A stretch of DNA of 64,000 bases from an uncultured Desulfosoma sp. (lineage in GTDB: Bacteria; Desulfobacterota; Syntrophobacteria; Syntrophobacterales; DSM-9756), in assembly GCA_937960435.1 (NCBI GenBank), contig CALGPN010000012.1, forward strand, positions 1-64,000, read 5' to 3'. The notes beneath the pieces were generated by a model, which had not been told where the DNA came from, ran no database searches, and saw nothing but the letters and a program-made list of their open reading frames with translations. Position numbers and translations under genes: made by a program. Numbering within the stretch: the first letter of the stretch is position 1; every line of letters starts with the position of its first letter. This document shows, one piece after another, positions 14,033-25,112 of the stretch.

Positions 14033-15001
14033 ATGGCCAGGAACCGCGGAAGTTTTTTCTTCCTTATAATGGTTGGCGTATTGGGGCTTTTGGGCGAGGT
14101 CCAGGCTGCGGATCCCCTGAGGGTTTTTGTGAGTCTTCCCCCGCAAAAATTTTTCGTGGAACGATTGGGTGGCGATCGCGTGAAGGTGGAACCGTTGGTT
14201 CCCGCCGGAGCGGACCCCCATACTTTCGAGCCGTCGCCGGCTCACATGAAAGCCCTCTCCCAAGCATCCCTTTATTTCGCCATCGGGATCCCCTTTGAAA
14301 AAACCCTTGTGTCGCGAATCCGCTCCATAAACCCTCAACTGACCGTCATCCAAACGGACCAAGACTTACCCAAAAGGTTCATGGCTCTCCATTCTCATGG
14401 ACACGGCGATGAGGGAAAAGATCAAAAATCGGGAGGGAAGGGGAAGTCCAAGGCCCAAGGCCAGGGGGTCGAATCGGCAACCCATTCGGAGAGCCACGAC
14501 CATGACCACGGGGAACCCGACCCCCATGTGTGGCTTTCTCCCCCACTGGTCATGGCCATGGCCCGAACCATGGCTTTGGCCCTCATGGAAGCGGACCCTT
14601 CGGATCGAGCGGGGTATGAAGGCCGTTACAAGACTTTTCTTGCCGAGGTGGCCGCTCTGGATCTGGAGATCCACAGGATTTTGCGGGAGGCGAAACCTCC
14701 GAGGGTCTTTTACGTTTTTCATCCTTCGTGGGGTTATTTTGCCGACGCATACGGATTGGAACAGGTATCCGTGGAATCGGAAGGCAAAGAAGCCAAGCCC
14801 GCGCATCTCAAGGCCTTGATTCAGTCGGCCCGGCAGGCGGGTGTGAAAGTCCTGTTCGTCCAACCGCAGTTTTCCAGCCGCTCGGCGGAGATGGTCGCCA
14901 AAGAAATTGGGGCGACCCTTGAGGTTCTTGATCCACTGGCTGAAAACTGGATGGAAAATCTTCGGCAGGTGACCCGGCGGCTTCGAGAGGCCATGCCATG
15001 A
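14033..15001 (+). CDS. znuA: Zinc ABC transporter substrate-binding protein
   Basis: 322 residues, exported by a signal peptide with cleavage likely after EVQAAD (about residue 25). It is a cluster A-I metal-binding protein: PAGADPHTFEPSP supplies the first His ligand, and the loop at about 120-165 is rich in His and Asp (HSHGHGDEG, HSESHDHDHGEPDPHVW), typical of zinc rather than manganese binders. It would deliver Zn to the ZnuB permease. It overlaps znuC by 4 nt (ATGA). TGAGGAGGTCGTC gives a good ribosome site before the ATG. Confidence 0.95.
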   Translation: MARNRGSFFFLIMVGVLGLLGEVQAADPLRVFVSLPPQKFFVERLGGDRVKVEPLVPAGADPHTFEPSPAHMKALSQASLYFAIGIPFEKTLVSRIRSINPQLTVIQTDQDLPKRFMALHSHGHGDEGKDQKSGGKGKSKAQGQGVESATHSESHDHDHGEPDPHVWLSPPLVMAMARTMALALMEADPSDRAGYEGRYKTFLAEVAALDLEIHRILREAKPPRVFYVFHPSWGYFADAYGLEQVSVESEGKEAKPAHLKALIQSARQAGVKVLFVQPQFSSRSAEMVAKEIGATLEVLDPLAENWMENLRQVTRRLREAMP

Positions 15002-15783
15002 GTGTGAGGTTTCAAGGGGAAGTTGCCAGGCTCCAACACGTCTCGTACGCCTACAATAGCCATACGGTGCTGGAGAACGTGGACCTCACAATCAGCGCCG
15101 GTGATTTTGCGGCCGTCATCGGTCCCAACGGCGGCGGGAAAACGACGCTCTTAAAGCTCCTCCTAGGCCTGCTGAAGCCTCGGAGCGGTACGGTCACCCT
15201 TTTCGGCCAGGCACCCGCAAAGGCCGCGCACCGTGTCGGTTATGTTCCTCAAGATGTTCATATCAATCGGTTTTTCCCATTGACCGTCCTGGAATTGGCC
15301 CTCATGGGCCGGCTGGGCCCTGGGCGCTTGCTTCGCCGTTACTCCGCCAAGGATCTAACGGCTGCAGAAGCCGCTTTGGATCGCATGGAGATGCTTGCCT
15401 ACCGAAAGGCCCGCTTGGATGAATTGAGCGGCGGTCAACGGCAAAGGGTTTTCATTGCCAGAGCTTTGGCGTCGGAGCCGGAGGCACTTTTTTTGGATGA
15501 ACCGGCCGCCGGGGTGGATTCGGTGGGCCAAAAGGATCTCTACAGCCATTTGAAGGAGCTCAACGACCGCATGACGATTCTTGTGGTCACGCACGATCTT
15601 TTGGTTCTTTCCACGTACGTGAAATCCGTCGTGTGTGTGAATCGATCCTTGGTTCACCATCCTTCCCCGGAAGTGACGGAAAACATGTTGCGCCTGGGAT
15701 ACCAATGTCCGGTGGAACTTTTGGGGCACGGCCATTTGCCGCACCGGGTGCTGCCCTTGCACGGAGGCAAAGACCGTGGGTGA
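14998..15783 (+). CDS. znuC: Zinc ABC transporter ATP-binding protein
   Basis: 261 residues. It is the ATPase of the zinc importer, with Walker A GPNGGGKTT, signature LSGGQRQRVFIARAL, Walker B ALFLDEPAAGVD and H-loop VVTHD. The C-terminal tail (HGHLPHRVLPLHGG) is His-rich, which is common in zinc-transporter ATPases. The ATG overlaps the znuA stop and the end overlaps the znuB start by 8 nt. Confidence 0.95.
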   Translation: MSVRFQGEVARLQHVSYAYNSHTVLENVDLTISAGDFAAVIGPNGGGKTTLLKLLLGLLKPRSGTVTLFGQAPAKAAHRVGYVPQDVHINRFFPLTVLELALMGRLGPGRLLRRYSAKDLTAAEAALDRMEMLAYRKARLDELSGGQRQRVFIARALASEPEALFLDEPAAGVDSVGQKDLYSHLKELNDRMTILVVTHDLLVLSTYVKSVVCVNRSLVHHPSPEVTENMLRLGYQCPVELLGHGHLPHRVLPLHGGKDRG

Positions 15784-16594
15784 GTGGCTGCACCTAGCCT
15801 TCGTTCAAAATGCTTTTGCGGCGGCGGTCCTGGCGGGTGTCCTGTGCGGCATTGTGGGGACCTATGTGGTGGCCAACCGCATGGGTTACATGGCCGGCGG
15901 GATCGCTCACGCCGCCTATGGGGGCGTGGGGCTCGCTTTCTTTATGAAAATTCCCCCGATGGTAGGCATTTTGGGTTTCACCGGTGTTGCCGCCATGGTC
16001 ATGGGCGTCCTTTCACTGCGGGAAAGGCACCGCGCCGATACCGTCATCAGCGTTCTGTGGGCTTTCGGCATGGCCCTGGGCGTCCTTTTGGTGGATCTCA
16101 CTCCGGGTTACGGCGCCGACCTTATGAGTTACCTCTTCGGCAGCATCCTCACCGTCTCCCGCGCATCTCTCGCCGCCATGGCCGCCCTCACCGCCTCCGT
16201 CCTCATCTTTACGGCGCTTTTCCATAAGGAATTGCTCGCGGTTTCCTATGACGAACATTTCGCTCGGGTGCGCGGTCTGCCGGTGACGACGTTTTATTTG
16301 ACTCTGATCGCCATCATCGCGCTAACGGTAGTCGTCCTGGTGCAGGTGGTCGGGCTTATCCTGGTGATCGCCTTCTTGACCATTGCGCCTTATATCGCCG
16401 AAAAGAGCAGTCGGTCTTTGCAGAGCATGATGTTTCGCTCCGTTTTTTATAACATCGTCTTCGGGGCGGTGGGGCTCGGTTTTTCCCTCGCTTTGAACGT
16501 CACGTCCGGTGCGGCCATTATTTGCGTGGCGGCGGCAGGGTATTTCGCTTCGGTCGCCATGAGCGCCGTAAGACAGAGGATGCAAAACGGGTGA
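15776..16594 (+). CDS. znuB: Zinc ABC transporter permease
   Basis: 272 residues with about eight membrane segments and the ABC-3 family pattern (GIVGTYVVANRMGYMAGGIAH, VVLVQVVGLILVIAFLTIAP). The GTG at 15776 lies inside the end of znuC, a sign of coupled translation. No better ATG start is available nearby. Together with znuA and znuC it forms the complete high-affinity zinc importer. Confidence 0.94.
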   Translation: MGEWLHLAFVQNAFAAAVLAGVLCGIVGTYVVANRMGYMAGGIAHAAYGGVGLAFFMKIPPMVGILGFTGVAAMVMGVLSLRERHRADTVISVLWAFGMALGVLLVDLTPGYGADLMSYLFGSILTVSRASLAAMAALTASVLIFTALFHKELLAVSYDEHFARVRGLPVTTFYLTLIAIIALTVVVLVQVVGLILVIAFLTIAPYIAEKSSRSLQSMMFRSVFYNIVFGAVGLGFSLALNVTSGAAIICVAAAGYFASVAMSAVRQRMQNG

Positions 16595-16598
16595 GCCC

Positions 16599-17036
16599 AT
16601 GTGTGAGCGCTGCAACTACGAAAAACTCATGGAAGGTGTGGGCATCCGAGCTACGAAGCATCGGTTGGCGGTTCTTCGGATCCTGGGAAACGCTCCAAGC
16701 CCCATGACCGCCCAAGAGGTTTTTGACGCCCTTAAGGCCGACCGATCCATCAACCGCGTCACGGTGTACCGCATTCTCGAATCCCTCGTGGAGGGTGGGG
16801 TCGTGGATAAGATCAGCACCGGGGACCGAAGTTTCCGCTACGGGCTGGCCCCTAACGACAATCATCCTCAGCACGCCCATTTTTACTGCCGCCTGTGCGG
16901 CCTCATGACGTGTCTGCCGCCGGAAAGTTTCCGCTTGCCTTTCGGAATTCCTTCGCCAGGGCTGCCGGGCGTTGTGGAAAAGTACGAAATCCGGCTCGAC
17001 GGTGTGTGCCACCGATGCCGCCCGGAAAAATCATGA
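16599..17036 (+). CDS. zur: Fur-family regulator, probable Zur
   Basis: 145 residues with a winged helix (GIRATKHRLAVLRIL, then VTVYRILESLVEGGVV) and metal sites: HPQHAHFYCRLCG and the C-terminal VCHRC supply two CxxC pairs. The N-terminal MCERCN adds a further CxxC. Location 4 nt after znuB supports zinc sensing rather than iron or peroxide sensing. It likely represses its own operon through the inverted repeat before znuA. Confidence 0.88.
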   Translation: MCERCNYEKLMEGVGIRATKHRLAVLRILGNAPSPMTAQEVFDALKADRSINRVTVYRILESLVEGGVVDKISTGDRSFRYGLAPNDNHPQHAHFYCRLCGLMTCLPPESFRLPFGIPSPGLPGVVEKYEIRLDGVCHRCRPEKS

Positions 17037-17103
17037 TCCGCCGCTTCCTGGAGATCATCGGAGGAATCAAACCCATAGCGGCTTTCTAATCGAAACTATC
17101 TAT

Positions 17104-17132
17104 TTGTTTCTGAAGTTCGGCGTTTTTTATGC
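17104..17132 (+). promoter_or_regulatory. Candidate promoter upstream of yedF
   Basis: TTGTTT (17104-17109) and TTATGC (17127-17132) are spaced by 17 nt in an AT-richer stretch, about 80 nt before yedF. Both boxes are imperfect. The 175-nt gap after zur suggests yedF has its own promoter. Confidence 0.35.
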
Positions 17133-17211
17133 TTCCCTGCGTCTAGGCCGAATATCCAAAGTCTTTCACGTGCCTGGAAAATTTTCGGGAAACCCCTTAC
17201 GGAGAGGCGTT

Positions 17212-17814
17212 ATGAAGGAAGAACGTTTGGACTGTCGGGGTTTGGCCTGCCCGGCCCCGGTTCTTAAGGTCAAAGACACTCTGGATCGTTCCCCCTTGGA
17301 TCGCCTTGAGGTCTGGGTGGATAATGCGGCGGCGAAAGAAAACGTGAGTCGGTTTCTGATGAGGGCCGGCTTTCAGGTGCAGGTCCGGGAAGACCAACAA
17401 GCCTTTGTGGTTTTTGGGAGCCGCGAGGGGCAGGAGAGCTGTGAGGTCTTCGTGCCGAAAGCCGATGCCGAAACGGCGCGTATTCTCGTGCTTGTGGGCA
17501 CGTCACGGCTCGGCTCGGGCGATGACACCCTGGGGGCCAAGCTCATGGAAAATTTTCTGGCAACCTTGAAAGAAATGGGGCCTGCCCTGTGGCGCGTGGT
17601 CTTTTTAAACGGCGGCGTCCACCTTACGGTGGAAGGCTCGCCTGTTTTGGAGACCCTGAAAAACCTGGAAAGGGATAAGGTGAGCCTCCTTGTGTGCGGA
17701 ACGTGTCTCAACCATTTCGGCCTTTTGGAAAAAAAGGCCGTGGGGGAGACCACCAACATGCTGGATATCGTCACCTCCATGCAGCTGGCCGACCGAGTGA
17801 TCAGCCTGACATAG
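17212..17814 (+). CDS. yedF: Sulfurtransferase-like selenium metabolism protein YedF
   Basis: 200 residues in two parts. The N-terminal TusA-like domain has LDCRGLACPAPV with Cys13 as the CPxP cysteine. The C-terminal half (about 78-200) is DsrE-like and contains LLVCGTCLNHFG, the CxxC of selenium-linked YedF. The frame is open far upstream, but GGAGAGGCGTT precedes the ATG at 17212 and the protein begins normally there. It accompanies selD in many Sec-using bacteria. Here it is separated from the rest of the selenium block by the zinc operon. Confidence 0.9.
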   Translation: MKEERLDCRGLACPAPVLKVKDTLDRSPLDRLEVWVDNAAAKENVSRFLMRAGFQVQVREDQQAFVVFGSREGQESCEVFVPKADAETARILVLVGTSRLGSGDDTLGAKLMENFLATLKEMGPALWRVVFLNGGVHLTVEGSPVLETLKNLERDKVSLLVCGTCLNHFGLLEKKAVGETTNMLDIVTSMQLADRVISLT

Positions 17815-17913
17815 GGACGGGCCCGACCACGGGGCGACGCGATGAGATCTTTGGGAGGGGACGATCGCCGCCCCGGGGCATCGACCCGGATCGAGCAGCC
17901 ATGTCCTCGATGA

Positions 17914-17941
17914 TTGACAAAATCGCGGGCTTTTCTAACAT
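17914..17941 (+). promoter_or_regulatory. Candidate sigma-70 promoter for the DAC-domain gene
   Basis: TTGACA (17914-17919), a 16-nt spacer and TAACAT (17936-17941) stand 42 nt before the ATG at 17983. The -35 is perfect. Confidence 0.5.
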
Positions 17942-17982
17942 GGGGCGGTTTTCCATGACCGCATATCCAGGGAGCGCTCCCC

Positions 17983-19419
17983 ATGCCCGTGAAAACTTCA
18001 AAAAATCACCTCATCTTCAATATCCTTGAGGCGCTTCGGGAAGGGTTCACGCATTTTTCCGGCCCAAGCCGGGTGGCGGTGCTCTATGCGGAAAAACGAG
18101 ACGACCCCATGCGGGTCTGCGACCCGGAGGATCTCCTTCGGGGTCACGAGCCGAAGCTCAAAGAGCTATATCTCGACAGCGACGCGTGGCGGACCCAGGC
18201 TCCGGACACGCGCGAAATGAAGCGATTCGGCCAAATTTACGCTCTTCCCAATCTGCATCTCTCGGGGCTTATTTCTTTCGGCGGCCGATCGCGCTCCGTT
18301 TTTTATCAGATGTGGTTTACGGAACATCACCCCGACATGTGTTCCGTCCTGCCCACGGAACGCTGGCTGGAACATGCAGCCTATCTGCTGTCCCATGATT
18401 TCGCCACAGCCCAAACGTTCTACACGGACTCCTCCCGATACGTCCTTCGCGAATACGCCACCCACGCCGTCCATGACGCCATTTTGGACGGCTTGAACCT
18501 CAAAGTCGGCTGGGACAGCCGCCTTCGGATCTACCCCATTTTGGACGCCGTCCTGGAAATTTCGAAGACGCCGGAGGAAGGGGCCTGGCCCCGAGGCAAG
18601 CTGGTGTTTGTGGAAGAGACTTCCCTAAAAGACATCCCTTTCATGGTTGTTTTCCCCGAATGGGAACGTCCAAGCATCAGCAATGCGAAGCACATCCGAA
18701 AGATTTTGTTGGCCGTGGAACATTCGGAACGCTGGCTGGTCTCCGAAGGGCGAACCCTTGTGGGGATCGGCAGAGGTCCCTTGCCGGAGTGCCGCGTGAG
18801 CGCCGAGTTCCTCGGCAGTTACGGCTTTCTTCGGTTCAACGGCCAACCCATGTGCAGCTTTTCGGAAGGGCGTTTTTACTCATCAAACCGTCGGGCGAAA
18901 CTGGTCCAGCTCGAGGAAACCCTCCTCACATCGGAATTGGCCCCTTCGATGGCCCACACGCTTTTTCAAGTCTCGGCGGCCATTGTGCATAGCGCCCAAG
19001 AACGCAAGCACGGGTGCACCCTGGTCCTGGATCTGGGCCCCACACCCCTTTCCATATCGGGGCATCTTTTGGAAACCGCCTTGGACTTGCAGGATCCCGC
19101 CAACCTGGATTTGGCCAAATCCCTCTCGAAAATGGATGGGGCTTTGCATATCGGGGCGGACGCCAGACTGTATCGATTCGCCTGCCTTCTCGACGGCCGC
19201 AGCGTGGCAGGCGAAGACCGAAGCCGAGGAGCCCGCTACAATTCAGCTTTGCGCTTCAGTGCTGAGCATGACCAAGCTATCATCCTGGTCGTCTCTTCCG
19301 ATCGGCCGGTCTCCGTTATCCATGGGGGGGTAGAGCTTTCGGCCATGTGCCCATGGACCCCGACTTTTACCCTCTCCGGCGTGCCCCCCACGCTGTCCGA
19401 TTGGATTTCTCTAGGTTAA
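17983..19419 (+). CDS. DisA_N / diadenylate-cyclase-like (DAC) domain protein with N-terminal sensor region
   Basis: 478 residues, no signal peptide or clear membrane segment. The C-terminal 150 residues look like a DAC domain, which makes c-di-AMP from two ATP: DGA at 385-387 matches its first motif, and GARYNSALRFS (from 416) sits where canonical enzymes have GTRHRAA, followed by IILVVSSDRPVSVIHGG. The N-terminal 300 residues would be the sensor region of a DACN-type architecture. The second motif lacks the usual His, so activity is uncertain. GGGAG precedes the ATG. It appears monocistronic, 163 nt before the TIM-barrel gene by my start. Confidence 0.65.
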   Translation: MPVKTSKNHLIFNILEALREGFTHFSGPSRVAVLYAEKRDDPMRVCDPEDLLRGHEPKLKELYLDSDAWRTQAPDTREMKRFGQIYALPNLHLSGLISFGGRSRSVFYQMWFTEHHPDMCSVLPTERWLEHAAYLLSHDFATAQTFYTDSSRYVLREYATHAVHDAILDGLNLKVGWDSRLRIYPILDAVLEISKTPEEGAWPRGKLVFVEETSLKDIPFMVVFPEWERPSISNAKHIRKILLAVEHSERWLVSEGRTLVGIGRGPLPECRVSAEFLGSYGFLRFNGQPMCSFSEGRFYSSNRRAKLVQLEETLLTSELAPSMAHTLFQVSAAIVHSAQERKHGCTLVLDLGPTPLSISGHLLETALDLQDPANLDLAKSLSKMDGALHIGADARLYRFACLLDGRSVAGEDRSRGARYNSALRFSAEHDQAIILVVSSDRPVSVIHGGVELSAMCPWTPTFTLSGVPPTLSDWISLG

Positions 19420-19546
19420 ACCCTCTTTCGGATCATGTTTTCCTATTGGATCGCTCATGGCGGGCGCAGTATGGTCGTTTGGCCCATTATCAGGAACATG
19501 GCCGTAGGTGCCATCTTCGACCTTGACCCGGAGGCCCGGAAAGTTC

Positions 19547-20362
19547 ATGTGGAGGCCCAAACTGGCTTGCCCCAATTTCACGAGAGATTGTGCAGTCCTT
19601 CGCCGTTTCGCGGAGGACTGCGGCCTTGACGGCATAGACTGGAGCTTCACCCTCCGGGAGCTGCCGCAAAACCCCAAGGAGGCCTCCCGGCTCCATCGAC
19701 AATTGGCCGAACTCCGTCCTCTCACCGTACGCTATCACGCCGCCTTCCCTACCGTGGACTTAGGGGACCGCGATCCGGAAAAGGCTCGATCCGCCCAACG
19801 GATTTTTGAACAGGTCTGCCGCCTTGTTTCCAAGTTGGAGGGGGAAACTCTGACAATTCATGTGGGGCTGGGACGAACCACAACGGAAGATCTTTCCTGG
19901 GAAAGGACGCTGGAAAACCTTTTGCGCCTAAACACCTTGGCCCAAAGGCTCGGGGTCCGGCTCTGCCTGGAAAACCTCGCCTGGGGCTGGACCAGCCGTC
20001 CCGAACTATTCGAAAAAATGCTTCGTCGAAGCGGCCTCTGGGCCACCTTCGACATCGGCCACGCCGTAGTCAGCCCATCCATTGTCTCCGAGCGTTTTGA
20101 CCTCGAGGACTTCGTCACCCCTCACGGTGAACGCATTCTCAACGCCCACGTCTATCACAAGGAGTTGAGCGATCGCCATTTCCCACCGGAATCCGTGGAC
20201 GATGTGGCTGATCGGCTGGACCTCCTCCGATCTCTCCCCGCCTGCGAATGGTGGGTCCTGGAACTGCGGGACGAGCCGTCTGTGCGCTCCACTCTTGACG
20301 TCATCCGAAAGTATCTGGAAAAAGACAACGATGACGTCCGGGTGGCCGGATCGACGCGGTAA
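19547..20362 (+). CDS. Xylose-isomerase-like TIM-barrel protein (sugar phosphate isomerase/epimerase family)
   Basis: 271 residues. Typical AP-endonuclease-2/xylose-isomerase-like barrel motifs are visible: LTIHVGLGRTT, LCLENLAWGW, WATFDIGHAV and NAHVYHKE, supplying the Glu, Asp and His metal ligands of the fold. The function is unknown; members include isomerases, epimerases and endonuclease IV. The frame can be extended to a GTG at 19508, but the ATG at 19547 is preceded by GGAGG and the barrel begins right after it. It is followed after 27 nt by a CDP-alcohol transferase. Confidence 0.8.
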   Translation: MWRPKLACPNFTRDCAVLRRFAEDCGLDGIDWSFTLRELPQNPKEASRLHRQLAELRPLTVRYHAAFPTVDLGDRDPEKARSAQRIFEQVCRLVSKLEGETLTIHVGLGRTTTEDLSWERTLENLLRLNTLAQRLGVRLCLENLAWGWTSRPELFEKMLRRSGLWATFDIGHAVVSPSIVSERFDLEDFVTPHGERILNAHVYHKELSDRHFPPESVDDVADRLDLLRSLPACEWWVLELRDEPSVRSTLDVIRKYLEKDNDDVRVAGSTR

Positions 20363-20389
20363 CGAGCAGGACGGAGAGGGAAAACCCTT

Positions 20390-21055
20390 TTGACTTCATC
20401 GTCGTCTTGGCAGACCAAACCCACCGACCGGTTTATCCTGCGCTGGATTAAGCGTCACTTGTCGGCCCGCATCACGCCGCACGTGGCCCACGTCCCCGGG
20501 CTTGCCCCCTGGATGGTGACGGTGGTCTCCGCCGCCTTGGGTGTCCTGGCGGGCATCGTCTTCGCTCTGGGTTGGGGCTTTGCAGCCGGTTGTGTCGCCG
20601 CCGTGGCCCAGGTCTTGGACGGCGTGGACGGGCAGCTGGCTCGACTGAAGGGGGCAGAAACGCGATGGGGAGCTTTCTGGGATTCCACCCTGGACCGGTA
20701 TGCCGACGGCGCCATGCTCGTGGGGATGGGGGCTTACGTGGCTCGAGAATTTGCCGTCGTTCCCCTTGGGGCGCTCCTTTTTTTGGCGGCTTCGGCCCTC
20801 ATCGGGTGCGGTCTCATCAGTTACACCACGGCCCGGGCGGAAACCCTCGGTTTGGATCTTGGGCCGCCGACTTTGCTGAGCAAAGGGACGCGAACGACGC
20901 TCATGATCTTTTCGGCATGGGCCTCGGTGTTTTGGAAAGGGGCGCCTTTGATCGGCTTGGGTGTCCTGGCCGTTTTGAGCAACGCCGTTGTGGTCTACAG
21001 GCTCCGGCGCGTCAAGGTGAACGGCGCGCCTCATCCGCCCCAAGGAAAGGACTAA
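20390..21055 (+). CDS. CDP-alcohol phosphatidyltransferase family membrane protein
   Basis: 221 residues with about five membrane segments. The signature is complete: DGVDGQLARLKGAE followed by GAFWDSTLDRYAD, that is DGxxARx8GxxxDxxxD, whose Asp residues bind the divalent metal. These enzymes transfer a phospho-alcohol from a CDP-activated donor to an acceptor alcohol. Substrates cannot be named. The start is a TTG at 20390 with GAGAGGG upstream, and no ATG fits. It sits 4 nt before a nucleotidyltransferase gene, so the pair may act in sequence. Confidence 0.85.
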   Translation: MTSSSSWQTKPTDRFILRWIKRHLSARITPHVAHVPGLAPWMVTVVSAALGVLAGIVFALGWGFAAGCVAAVAQVLDGVDGQLARLKGAETRWGAFWDSTLDRYADGAMLVGMGAYVAREFAVVPLGALLFLAASALIGCGLISYTTARAETLGLDLGPPTLLSKGTRTTLMIFSAWASVFWKGAPLIGLGVLAVLSNAVVVYRLRRVKVNGAPHPPQGKD

Positions 21056-21059
21056 GGCG

Positions 21060-21635
21060 ATGTCGTCACGCCACAACGGGATGAACCTGGAAACCCTCGT
21101 GCCGTGCGGCGTGATCCACGGCCGGTTCCAGATCCTTCACAACGACCATCTGCGATACCTCCTGGCCGGGAAGGCCCTTTCGAACCATCTAGTGGTCGGG
21201 ATTACCAACCCGGAACCTGCCCTGAGCGCCGACGACGAGGCGGATCCCGCCCGGAGCGATCCTGCCGCCAACCCGCTGACGTACTACGAAAGACAGCTCA
21301 TGGTGCGCCGGGCTCTGGAAACGCATGGGGTGGCGTTGGAGGACTTCACCATCGTCCCTTTTCCCGTGAATTTCCCGCAACGCTATCGGTATTATGTGCC
21401 TTTGGACGCGGTCTTTTACCTGACCATTTATGACGACTGGGGCCGGAAGAAACTTCGCATGTTTCAGTCTCTGGGCTTGAAAACCCACGTGCTTTGGGAA
21501 AAACCACCGCACGAGAAGGGTATCAGCGCTTCCGAGGTGCGGCGCCGCATTCGAGAGGGGCTGCCGTGGGAGCATCTCGTCCCCGAGACCACTGCCGAGT
21601 TGGTCAAGGCATGGAAAATCGCCGAGCGTCTCTGA
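21060..21635 (+). CDS. NMN-adenylyltransferase-like nucleotidyltransferase
   Basis: 191 residues. GVIHGRFQILHNDHLRYL is the nucleotide-binding start of the HxGH superfamily, here with HNDH, and ISASEVRRRI near residue 155 is the second (ISSTxxR-like) motif. The closest named relatives are archaeal NadM-type adenylyltransferases. The position directly after a CDP-alcohol transferase leaves open that it uses CTP to activate an alcohol phosphate. ATG at 21060 follows the previous stop by 4 nt. Confidence 0.8.
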   Translation: MSSRHNGMNLETLVPCGVIHGRFQILHNDHLRYLLAGKALSNHLVVGITNPEPALSADDEADPARSDPAANPLTYYERQLMVRRALETHGVALEDFTIVPFPVNFPQRYRYYVPLDAVFYLTIYDDWGRKKLRMFQSLGLKTHVLWEKPPHEKGISASEVRRRIREGLPWEHLVPETTAELVKAWKIAERL

Positions 21636-22218: not shown

Positions 22219-22453
22219 GGTCACTCCTCCCATAATCGATGTTTTGGGCATGGTTCTCCCGGACGGCCGGACCCGCCTCGCCGTCGCCTGCCATATCAAA
22301 ATGCGCACGGAAATTTCCTCAAGATGCGCCGTCATTGTGCCGAACTCTTTGATGGGCTTATGCCGCGGTCTTCTCCGGAAAAGCCGGTAGTCGGCCTCAT
22401 CGGGCCTGGGCGGCCGCGAAAGTATCATGCATTGGAACCAAGCCGGAGAAAGT

Positions 22454-22930
22454 ATGAAACCACTCAAAGTCTTCGTGGCTTCCGACGGGAAAGGCACGAT
22501 CGTCTGTCCCCAATGCGGTTATACCCGCCGGGTGGACGCCGCTCGTTTCGGCGATTCCAAAAACCCTGTCACCGCTCGCTGCCCTTGTGGGCATGTCTTC
22601 CCCGTGTCCCTCGAGATCCGCAAGGCTTATCGAAAGTCGGTTTTTCTTTTCGGAGAATATCGGAAAAAAACGGACAAGGCGAGCGAACCCCTTCGACAAA
22701 TGATCGTGCAGGATCTGTCGCAAACCGGTTGCCGCTTTCAGACGCCGTCGGCTCACAACCTGAAGCCGGGGGATTTGGTTTATCTTGAAATTCCTCTCAC
22801 CGATGAGCGAAAGTCCGTGATCCGAGCCACGGGCGAGGTGCGGCGTGTGGACGGAAAGAACGTCGGAATCGTTTTTGTCCATTTCGAGTCCGGGTCGGAG
22901 AAAGCCCTCTACTTCTTTCTCCTCCCTTAA
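22454..22930 (+). CDS. PilZ domain protein with N-terminal zinc-ribbon-like segment
   Basis: 158 residues. The N-terminal part has IVCPQCGY and ARCPCGHVF, a four-cysteine zinc-ribbon-like pair. From about 85 the protein follows the PilZ pattern (LRQMIVQDLSQTGCRF...LKPGDLVYLEI...NVGIVFVHF). PilZ domains usually bind c-di-GMP, but the RxxxR motif before the strand is poorly matched (only one clear Arg), so binding is uncertain. GGAG lies 7 nt before the ATG at 22454. Confidence 0.75.
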   Translation: MKPLKVFVASDGKGTIVCPQCGYTRRVDAARFGDSKNPVTARCPCGHVFPVSLEIRKAYRKSVFLFGEYRKKTDKASEPLRQMIVQDLSQTGCRFQTPSAHNLKPGDLVYLEIPLTDERKSVIRATGEVRRVDGKNVGIVFVHFESGSEKALYFFLLP

Positions 22931-23228: not shown

Positions 23229-25112
23229 ATGTTGCTCAGAAAAGACGACATCCAGGCACGCACCATCACCGAAGACGGTCGTATTTTTCTCGAGAAAGCC
23301 GCCCGAGACGGCCTTGAAACGGTTTGGGATCGTTACGAAGCCCAAAGGCCGCAGTGCGGCTTTTGCGAGCTGGGGTTGAGCTGCCGCAATTGCTCCATGG
23401 GGCCGTGCCGGATCGACCCCTTCGGGGAAGGGCCGCAGCGTGGCGTATGCGGCGCCGATGCGGACATCATTGTGGCCCGAAACCTAGGGCGCATGATCGC
23501 CGCCGGATCGGCCTCCCATTCCGATCACGGCCGGGATCTGGTCGAAGTGCTCCGAAAAGTGGGCGAAGGCCGCGCCCCGGGCTACGCCATCCGCAGCCCG
23601 GAAAAACTCAAAAAAGTCGCCGCGGAATTCGGGATCAGCCCCGACGGCAAAACGCCCGAAGCCTTGGCGGTGGAACTGGCCCACGCCATGGAGGAGGAGT
23701 TCGGCACTCGCAAAAAGGCGCTGACTTTCCTCAACAGGGTGCCGGAAAAACGCCGTGCCGTCTGGGAAAAGCTGGGGATCACACCCCGGGGTATCGACCG
23801 GGAAACGTCGGAAATGATGCACCGCACCCACATGGGTGTGGACAACGACTGGCAAAGCCTTCTTCTGCATGGGCTGCGCAACGCCCTTTCCGACGGTTGG
23901 GGCGGGTCCCTCATCGCTACCGAGGTTTCCGACATCCTGTTCGGCATTCCCCAACCGGTTTCCTCCGAAGTCAACTTGGGCGTCCTGAAGCACGACCAGG
24001 TGAACATTATTCTCCACGGTCACAACCCCATTGTGTCCGAGATGATATTCGAGGCGGCTCAAGATCCCGAACTGCTGGCGCTGGCCTCGCACAAAGGGGC
24101 GGCCGGGATCAATCTGGCCGGGTTGTGCTGCACGGGCAACGAACTTCTCATGCGCCGCGGCATTCCCATGGCGGGCAATCATCTCATGACGGAACTGGCC
24201 CTGAGCACCGGGCTGGTGGACATGATGCTCGTGGATTATCAATGCATTATGCCGGCTTTGGGTGAAATCGCCACCTGCTATCACACCCTCATGGTTTCCA
24301 CGAGCGACAAAGCCAAGTATCCCCACATGGTTCACCATGAGTTCCACCCCGAAACGGCTCAGCAAAAAGCTCGAGAATTGGTTCGCCAGGCGGTGGAAAA
24401 TTTCACCCGACGCATTCCGGCGAAAATCCTCACCCCTCCCAACGCCCCCACGAAAATGATGGCCGGTTTCAGCGTCGAAGCCATCGTGGCGGCCCTCGGT
24501 GGAAGCGCAACCCCGCTCATCGACGCCATCAAATCCGGAGCGGTCCAAGGCGCCGTGGGCGTCGTAGGATGCAACAATCCCAAAATCCGTCATGATTACG
24601 GCCACGTCACCCTGACACAACGCCTCATCCAAAACGACATCCTCGTCGTAGATACAGGCTGTGCCGCCGTGGCCCATGCCAAAGCCGGCCTCAAGGTGCC
24701 CGAAGCCGCGGGGCAAGCGGGACCGGGCTTGCAGAAGGTCTGCACGGCGCTGGGCATTCCCCCGGTTCTCCACATGGGCAGCTGTGTGGACAACGTTCGC
24801 ATCCTGGACCTGGCGGCCGCGCTGGCCAAGACGTTGGGAACCGACATTTCGGATCTTCCGTTGGCCGCCGCCGCCCCCGAATGGTATTCGGAAAAGGCTG
24901 TGTCCATCGCCTGTTACGCCGTGGCTTCAGGGGTTTTCACGGTGCTGGGCACCCCGCCGCCCATTTTCGGCAGCCCCAAGATCGTCAAGCTCCTGACCGA
25001 AGACATCCACGGTCTTCTGGGTGCCTCGTTCGCTGTGGAACCCGACCCGGAAAAAGCGGCGACGCTCATTGTGGAGCACATCCGCCGGAAGAGGAAAGCT
25101 CTCGGGCTTTAA
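23229..25112 (+). CDS. cooS: Anaerobic Ni-CO dehydrogenase catalytic subunit
   Basis: 627 residues, full length. It oxidises CO to CO2 at a Ni-Fe-S C-cluster. C-cluster ligands are recognisable in LHGHNPIVSEM (His), GLCCTGNELLM, YQCIMPALGE, VVGCNNPK, VDTGCAAVAH and HMGSCVDN. The B-cluster cysteines are in SCRNCSMGPC (52-60) and VCGA. At the subunit interface C43 and C46 form CxxC; the CxxC form in Desulfovibrio vulgaris binds a 2Fe-2S D-cluster, whereas most CooS have a Cx7C 4Fe-4S site. GAGGAGGGC precedes the ATG. No CooC maturation gene is adjacent. It is followed after 21 nt by a ferredoxin-like gene. Confidence 0.97.
   Translation: MLLRKDDIQARTITEDGRIFLEKAARDGLETVWDRYEAQRPQCGFCELGLSCRNCSMGPCRIDPFGEGPQRGVCGADADIIVARNLGRMIAAGSASHSDHGRDLVEVLRKVGEGRAPGYAIRSPEKLKKVAAEFGISPDGKTPEALAVELAHAMEEEFGTRKKALTFLNRVPEKRRAVWEKLGITPRGIDRETSEMMHRTHMGVDNDWQSLLLHGLRNALSDGWGGSLIATEVSDILFGIPQPVSSEVNLGVLKHDQVNIILHGHNPIVSEMIFEAAQDPELLALASHKGAAGINLAGLCCTGNELLMRRGIPMAGNHLMTELALSTGLVDMMLVDYQCIMPALGEIATCYHTLMVSTSDKAKYPHMVHHEFHPETAQQKARELVRQAVENFTRRIPAKILTPPNAPTKMMAGFSVEAIVAALGGSATPLIDAIKSGAVQGAVGVVGCNNPKIRHDYGHVTLTQRLIQNDILVVDTGCAAVAHAKAGLKVPEAAGQAGPGLQKVCTALGIPPVLHMGSCVDNVRILDLAAALAKTLGTDISDLPLAAAAPEWYSEKAVSIACYAVASGVFTVLGTPPPIFGSPKIVKLLTEDIHGLLGASFAVEPDPEKAATLIVEHIRRKRKALGL

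Follow-up and report, generated by a model that had tools for sequence, protein, structure and literature searches.

A DACND–DACNH–DAC protein of an uncultured Desulfosoma sp. with R-Y-N in place of the RHR motif of diadenylate cyclases

Introduction

Diadenylate cyclases (DACs) are described as needing two motifs, DGA and RHR. In the window studied here (the whole stretch of 64 000 nucleotides that was analysed, from contig CALGPN010000012.1 of an uncultured Desulfosoma sp.), a gene codes for a DAC-domain protein of 478 amino acids that keeps DGA and reads R-Y-N where RHR is expected. What can such a protein do? On account of the replaced RHR, we file it as a DAC-domain protein, and not as a diadenylate cyclase. 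The question reaches beyond this locus, as no examined member of the branch to which the protein belongs keeps more than one of the three RHR residues, and the replacements are under strong selection. Found both among sulphate reducers and within phage-defence operons, this R-[YFL]-N branch is a direct test of the role of RHR, and of the idea that DAC folds can produce signals different from c-di-AMP. Several such genes are named 'diadenylate cyclase' by annotation pipelines, which may be wrong.

The gene and its domains

The gene occupies positions 17983..19419 of the forward strand, from an ATG start to 478 codons and a stop. An earlier note, made from the sequence alone, had placed a DAC-domain protein here; its coordinates are exact and all 478 codons are open. 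On the same strand, the sequence GGGAG (17970..17974), 8 bases before the ATG, is a possible ribosome-binding site. It is spanned by a 12-base palindrome, GGGAGCGCTCCC (17970-17981), which lies directly 5' of the start codon and could be due to chance. Two sigma-70-like matches occur in the region, versus 0.5 expected; a match of 10/12 at 17914..17941 (+) is a weak promoter candidate.

The protein comprises three Pfam domains, all above their curated cut-offs: DACND (PF21749; residues 7–177, 18001..18513, + strand, E 4e-80), DACNH (residues 184–287, 18532..18843, +, E 4e-30) and DAC (PF02457; residues 335–449, 18985..19329, +, E 1e-14). The DACND profile matches the N-terminal domain over its full length with 267.7 bits (cut-off 27), and the DAC profile scores 54.4 bits (curated cut-off 27). 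A weak match to DACNV (PF21751) at residues 185–252 stays below the cut-off. The domain order is that of the homologues, and we saw no difference from the DACND family, of which the protein is a typical member. Its domains place it as a regular member of the DACND–DACNH–DAC family, which is named and uncharacterised. The large N-terminal region had been proposed to sense a signal, and Pfam likewise names DACND and DACNH 'probable sensor domains'. These N-terminal domains are reportedly described by Galperin (2023, All DACs in a row), in an article that may also describe the R-[YF]-N motif; in the literature searched we found no description of the latter.

A rearranged active site

The DGA motif is found at residues 385–387 (19135..19143, +), and RGARYNSALR (residues 415–424, 19225..19254, +) stands in place of xGTRHRAAxG. 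The earlier note was thus correct in reading DGA, and GARYNSA (residues 416–422) where diadenylate cyclases have GTRHRAA. Its further statement, that RHR is lacking, is accurate for the His, replaced by Tyr or Phe in the family, and for the second Arg, replaced by Asn, and goes too far for the first Arg (R418), which is kept. VSSD (residues 437–440, 19291..19302, +) is the counterpart of the canonical VSEE segment. A further motif, LDG (residues 403–405, 19189..19197, +), is a signature of the DACND/DACNH branch and is missing from the canonical DACs aligned, with respect to which Arg 415 and Arg 424 are new as well.

The conservation of these residues was examined in 89 non-redundant rows (108 aligned rows less 19 repeats). 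Invariant in all 89 are D385, G386, R415, G416, A417, R418, N420, S421, A422, R424, V437, S438 and D440; the Ala of DGA is present in 88, and in LDG the Leu and Gly are kept in 89 and the Asp in 85. Position 419 is Phe in 58 rows and Tyr in 31, so that the pattern RGAR[YF]NSA holds in 89/89. DAC is the best conserved of the domains, with a mean column identity of 0.745 versus 0.69 and 0.67. The ratio dN/dS lies between 0.02 and 0.17 depending on the domain, a crude estimate because dS is saturated. The invariance of the motif is more than chance and reflects selection, not decay. On this alignment the active site is rearranged rather than emptied: D385, R418, S438 and D440 are kept, while neither the His nor the second Arg remains.

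An unbiased measure of the motif comes from a search with the DACND profile, which covers the N-terminal domain and is blind to the motif. It gave matches in 33 of 147 related genomes; 30 were fetched, that of the present gene included, and one cut by a contig end (L025) was dropped. GAR[YF]NSA is present in 29/29 of these proteins with a complete DAC region, two of which (L004 and L005) are alike in the stretches printed. In a wider scan of 84 980 species (one genome each), 485 stretches encode relatives and 80 were kept; the motif count of 79/80, in a set where one protein (L126) is split in two pieces, is partly circular, the motif itself being one of the two peptide patterns used. Among the matches listed, nearly all relatives belong to sulphate reducers or to metagenome-assembled genomes named Desulfobacterales, Syntrophobacteraceae, Deltaproteobacteria or Proteobacteria, and the nearest named relatives are Desulfacinum. 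By comparison, RHR could be read in 30 of 31 high-scoring DACs of related genomes, all but L049. The protein is not an isolated oddity; its motif is family-wide in a named family and common to phage-defence relatives (see below).

In ordinary DACs, changing RHR to AAA abolished both ATP binding and cyclase activity in Mycobacterium tuberculosis DisA (PMC3328451), and activity in Mycobacterium bovis CdaM (PMC13022847). In Leptospira CdaA, the variants D172A (in DGA) and R203A (in GXRHRXA) are inactive, S222A has reduced activity, and the SEET segment is reported to bind the metal (PMC12974146). The section concerned does not specify which Arg of GXRHRXA is R203; R418 corresponds to the first. 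In the alignment, the counterparts of these key residues (D385, R418, S438 and D440) are invariant in the family. The Thr before RHR contacts phosphates in Staphylococcus aureus DacA (PMC6368335). It is replaced by Ala in the Desulfosoma protein; a canonical-looking GARHRAA also exists (L055).

The protein shares DGA, the first Arg, the Ser and the acid with CdaA, and differs from it in that CdaA has HDGA, GTRHRAA, VSEE and a transmembrane N-terminus. The domain of the latter (CdaA_N, PF19293) has no match in the 478-residue protein and is present in the CdaA of the same genome (L001), which also carries YbbR. The His before DGA separates CdaA from DisA, which lacks it (PMC12974146), and in this respect our protein resembles DisA. 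It differs from DisA in RHR, and no other DisA domain was reported in it.

Predicted structure

Searched by sequence, the Protein Data Bank gave no match to the 478-residue protein at E <= 1, and a profile search brought up a diadenylate cyclase at no better than E 0.61. Given this weak link to solved structures, structures had to be compared. An AlphaFold2 model was built from 27 homologues (mean pLDDT 86.7, pTM 0.76). In this model residues 318–455 match diadenylate cyclases with a Foldseek probability of 1.00; the best fit, to the CdaA–AMP complex 8c4n, has Z 15.3 and rmsd 2.9 over 129 residues. The structural matches are CdaA, the Bacillus cereus 2fb5 protein (called CdaS in PMC6368335), DacM/CdaM and DisA, whose DAC domain (3c1y, 9y4s) fits with Z 13. 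The DAC fold, common to CdaA, DisA and the predicted C-terminal half, is well supported by the model. Absence of this fold had been named as what would refute the description of a divergent DAC-domain protein; the predicted structure has the fold and, together with the Pfam match, bears the description out.

A second model, of residues 1–308, was built from 57 sequences with very high confidence (pLDDT 94.8, pTM 0.91). Residues 1–147 resemble GAF, longin and roadblock folds, with Z 6.6–8.1 over 99–137 residues, a range where chance similarity occurs. For residues 180–298, which correspond to DACNH, 10/10 listed rows are diadenylate cyclases (2fb5, DacM, CdaA, CdaM and DisA), with borderline Z of 6.7–8.2 and an rmsd of 3.2 over 116 residues. 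These matches span nearly the whole of DACNH, and the DAC domain itself is absent from this model. In our reading of the modelled secondary structure, DACNH has no helix at the position of the RHR-bearing helix. No similarity was found between DACNH and DAC sequence profiles; the same test scarcely links a true DACND-type DAC to canonical DACs (probability 8.6%). The Foldseek top 50 for the N-terminal model include no DAC. By fold comparison alone DACNH may be a degenerate DAC; since profiles give no support, Foldseek is silent and Z is near 8, we hold this as a lead.

Relatives on plasmids, phage defence and phylogeny

Searching 72 556 plasmid records by tblastn gave six matches, and a repeat with one of them gave seven. 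The seven DACNH-type proteins translated come from Priestia (three), Dyadobacter, Gluconobacter, Phycisphaera and Citrobacter; RG[AS]R[YFL]N[SA] and LDG are each present in 7/7. The Gluconobacter and Citrobacter proteins score 712 and 804 bits (cut-off 630) with DS2_3 (NF053872), which by its name we take to be the model of the DAC of the DS-2 system. The Citrobacter DAC gene adjoins genes for a DS2_1 phospholipase and a DS2_2 nucleotidyltransferase, both above their own cut-offs.

In the DefensePredictor study, DS-2 was validated as a phage defence in Escherichia coli, and defence was reportedly abolished by mutating either of two DAC residues predicted to be catalytic (PMC13092281). Our comparison with DS-2 runs through the NF053872 matches. 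The Desulfosoma protein reaches 62.4 bits with DS2_3, far below the cut-off. It is like the DS-2 DAC in the DACNH–DAC core, matched over residues 187–446, in R-[YFL]-N and in LDG. It differs in its N-terminal region (DACNG in the Dyadobacter relative), in the C-terminal extension present in both proteins above the cut-off, and in standing without adjacent CBASS partners. DACNG had no match in 247 genomes of the phylum, in a search where its profile rang nowhere; PADLOC and PHROGs gave no match, and no phage record matched the Dyadobacter DAC.

A maximum-likelihood tree was computed from 48 DAC domains after thinning (L172 was left out). A branch sets off each of the canonical, DACND (100/97) and DACNH (99/98) groups, and moderate support (89/70) joins DACND with DACNH. 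With this grouping, the simplest history is a single change from R-H-R to R-[YFL]-N, and we infer a probable single origin on the way to the DACNH-type DACs.

The DACNV-type DACs (PF21751) share the side of the tree with the R-[YF]-N branch, away from the canonical DACs, and differ from that branch by keeping the His in 11/11 loci. The motif, variable at its third place, is RHR in five loci, RHN in three, KHN in one and RHQ in two. The loci that carry RHN, KHN or RHQ in place of RHR are L170–L175; these sequences are possibly a half-way series towards the R-[YF]-N branch. Another DACNV locus (L176), on a long branch of the tree, reads RGMRHRSAAR, in which RHR is kept and both extra Arg are already present.

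Genomic setting

The genome measures 3.0 Mb in 61 contigs. It encodes a second DAC, a canonical TIGR00159-like CdaA fused to YbbR (L001) with GTRHRAA, and a PgpH-like phosphodiesterase (7TMR-HDED) whose HD motif is visible. A search for c-di-AMP receptors, proposed in the earlier note, found no c-di-AMP riboswitch and no CdAMP_rec (PF06153) in the genome; it gave five matches to TrkA_C, a domain common enough to occur in E. coli too. The note called c-di-AMP signalling rarely described in deltaproteobacteria; DAC genes are not rare in these bacteria, being present in 135 of the 147 related genomes, and a review likewise states that Deltaproteobacteria often carry them (PMC7288161).

The neighbours at 14033-21635 encode ZnuA, an ABC ATPase, an ABC-3 permease, a FUR protein and a TusA/DsrE protein, then a TIM barrel, a CDP-alcohol phosphatidyltransferase and a cytidylyltransferase-like protein. 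Across 77 DACND loci, each protein cluster recurs in a few at most, with the exception of receiver-domain proteins. The latter, named from the look of one sequence, lie near 19 of the 77 loci, at position −1 in 5/72, at +1 in 4/74 and further out in up to 5/57. As they form a large superfamily and their positions are scattered, we claim no operon partner. A phmmer search with three queries, the nucleotidyltransferases of Citrobacter and Priestia and the phospholipase, found no homologue among the reading frames around the 77 loci, a test that is insensitive for enzymes of such diversity.

Possible functions

We give a probability of a little under one half (about 0.48) to a cytosolic nucleotidyl cyclase that is controlled by a sensor and has a remodelled active site. 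The DACND domain, possibly GAF-like, would bind or otherwise perceive a signal, which DACNH would relay, switching the pairing of DAC domains; the paired domains would then condense ATP or another nucleotide. The Asn and the added Arg would replace the His and second Arg, part of the motif with which ordinary DACs hold ATP, and may change the substrate or the product. The separate CdaA would supply the housekeeping c-di-AMP pool, and the DACND–DACNH–DAC protein would carry a second, signal-specific output. Several observations argue for a cyclase: the DAC fold, the DAC domain as the most conserved one, cleft motifs with little or no variation among 89 rows, the catalytic residue types partly kept (D385, R418, S438 and D440), and the canonical CdaA in the same genome. 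In addition, the DS-2 DAC family, in which mutation of predicted catalytic residues reportedly cost defence (PMC13092281), falls within the R-[YFL]-N branch. Against it stand the loss of activity on changing RHR to AAA in the DisA and CdaM studies cited above, the replacement of the phosphate-contacting Thr by Ala and the absence of a conserved neighbour that names a pathway; a protein that purely binds a nucleotide could show such invariance too.

We place the remodelled, still catalytic cyclase slightly ahead of its closest rival, a pseudo-enzyme receptor, whose DAC cleft would no longer cyclise and would bind c-di-AMP (from CdaA) or ATP, with the N-terminal domains passing the occupancy on to a partner. 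It is possible, with a probability that we put at about one third. The His and the second Arg of RHR are replaced throughout the 89 rows, and the AAA change kills ATP binding in DisA (PMC3328451). Such a receptor would also suit a genome with neither riboswitch nor CdAMP_rec, where receptors are wanting, the five TrkA_C matches apart. A second, higher-scoring DAC is present in 33/33 DACND genomes surveyed; as proof this fails, a DAC being also present in 102/114 related genomes lacking DACND, a contrast that is not significant (hand count). Moreover, the retained Asp, Arg, Ser and acid are the catalytic set, and no output domain turned up, either fused to the protein or encoded beside it.

Ordinary DACs function in head-to-head pairs, so that DACNH and DAC in tandem would form a built-in pseudo-pair, an arrangement somewhat comparable to that of two-domain adenylyl cyclases. 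It is conceivable, and rather unlikely, that there are two DAC folds, a cryptic DACNH without the RHR helix and DGA next to the DAC, that this pseudo-pair regulates or redirects the chemistry, and that the whole R-[Y/F/L]-N branch makes or senses a signal other than plain c-di-AMP.

Less probable by far is a DS-2-like phage-defence accessory that works with a CBASS-type nucleotidyltransferase. The DACNH–DAC core and the motif are those of the DS2_3 proteins, one of which adjoins DS2_1 and DS2_2 genes on the Citrobacter plasmid. Yet the DS2_3 score is 62 bits versus 630, PADLOC is silent, the phmmer test (a weak one) detected no partner homologues around 77 DACND loci, and zinc-uptake and metabolic genes surround the gene. 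That the gene is a duplicated ordinary DAC in decay or without function, as the loss of the textbook RHR might suggest, is refuted in practice by the motif invariant in 89 rows, the purifying selection and the 485 stretches with relatives (one genome per species). Being family-wide and common to phage-defence DACs, the motif makes the function worth a bench test.

Further observations

The consecutive genes at 14033-17036 (for ZnuA, an ABC ATPase, an ABC-3 permease and a FUR-family regulator) form a zinc-uptake set. The TusA and DsrE domains lie in a single reading frame (16972-17814), whose true start is probably further in. About 3 kb downstream of the DAC gene, a PilZ-domain protein with a weak zinc-ribbon match (22427-22930) is a candidate c-di-GMP receptor, and a Prismane/CO dehydrogenase family protein of 627 amino acids follows at 23229-25112. 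The Citrobacter plasmid (NZ_CP029730.1, locus L164) that carries the three-gene DS-2 set is typed as conjugative IncC,IncP, and the DAC of the set is annotated there as a hypothetical protein. Two stretches of the wider scan (L119 and L121) come from the same contig of 24 060 bases (DQXI01000062.1), in opposite orientation and with the same match, probably as a result of an inverted assembly duplication.
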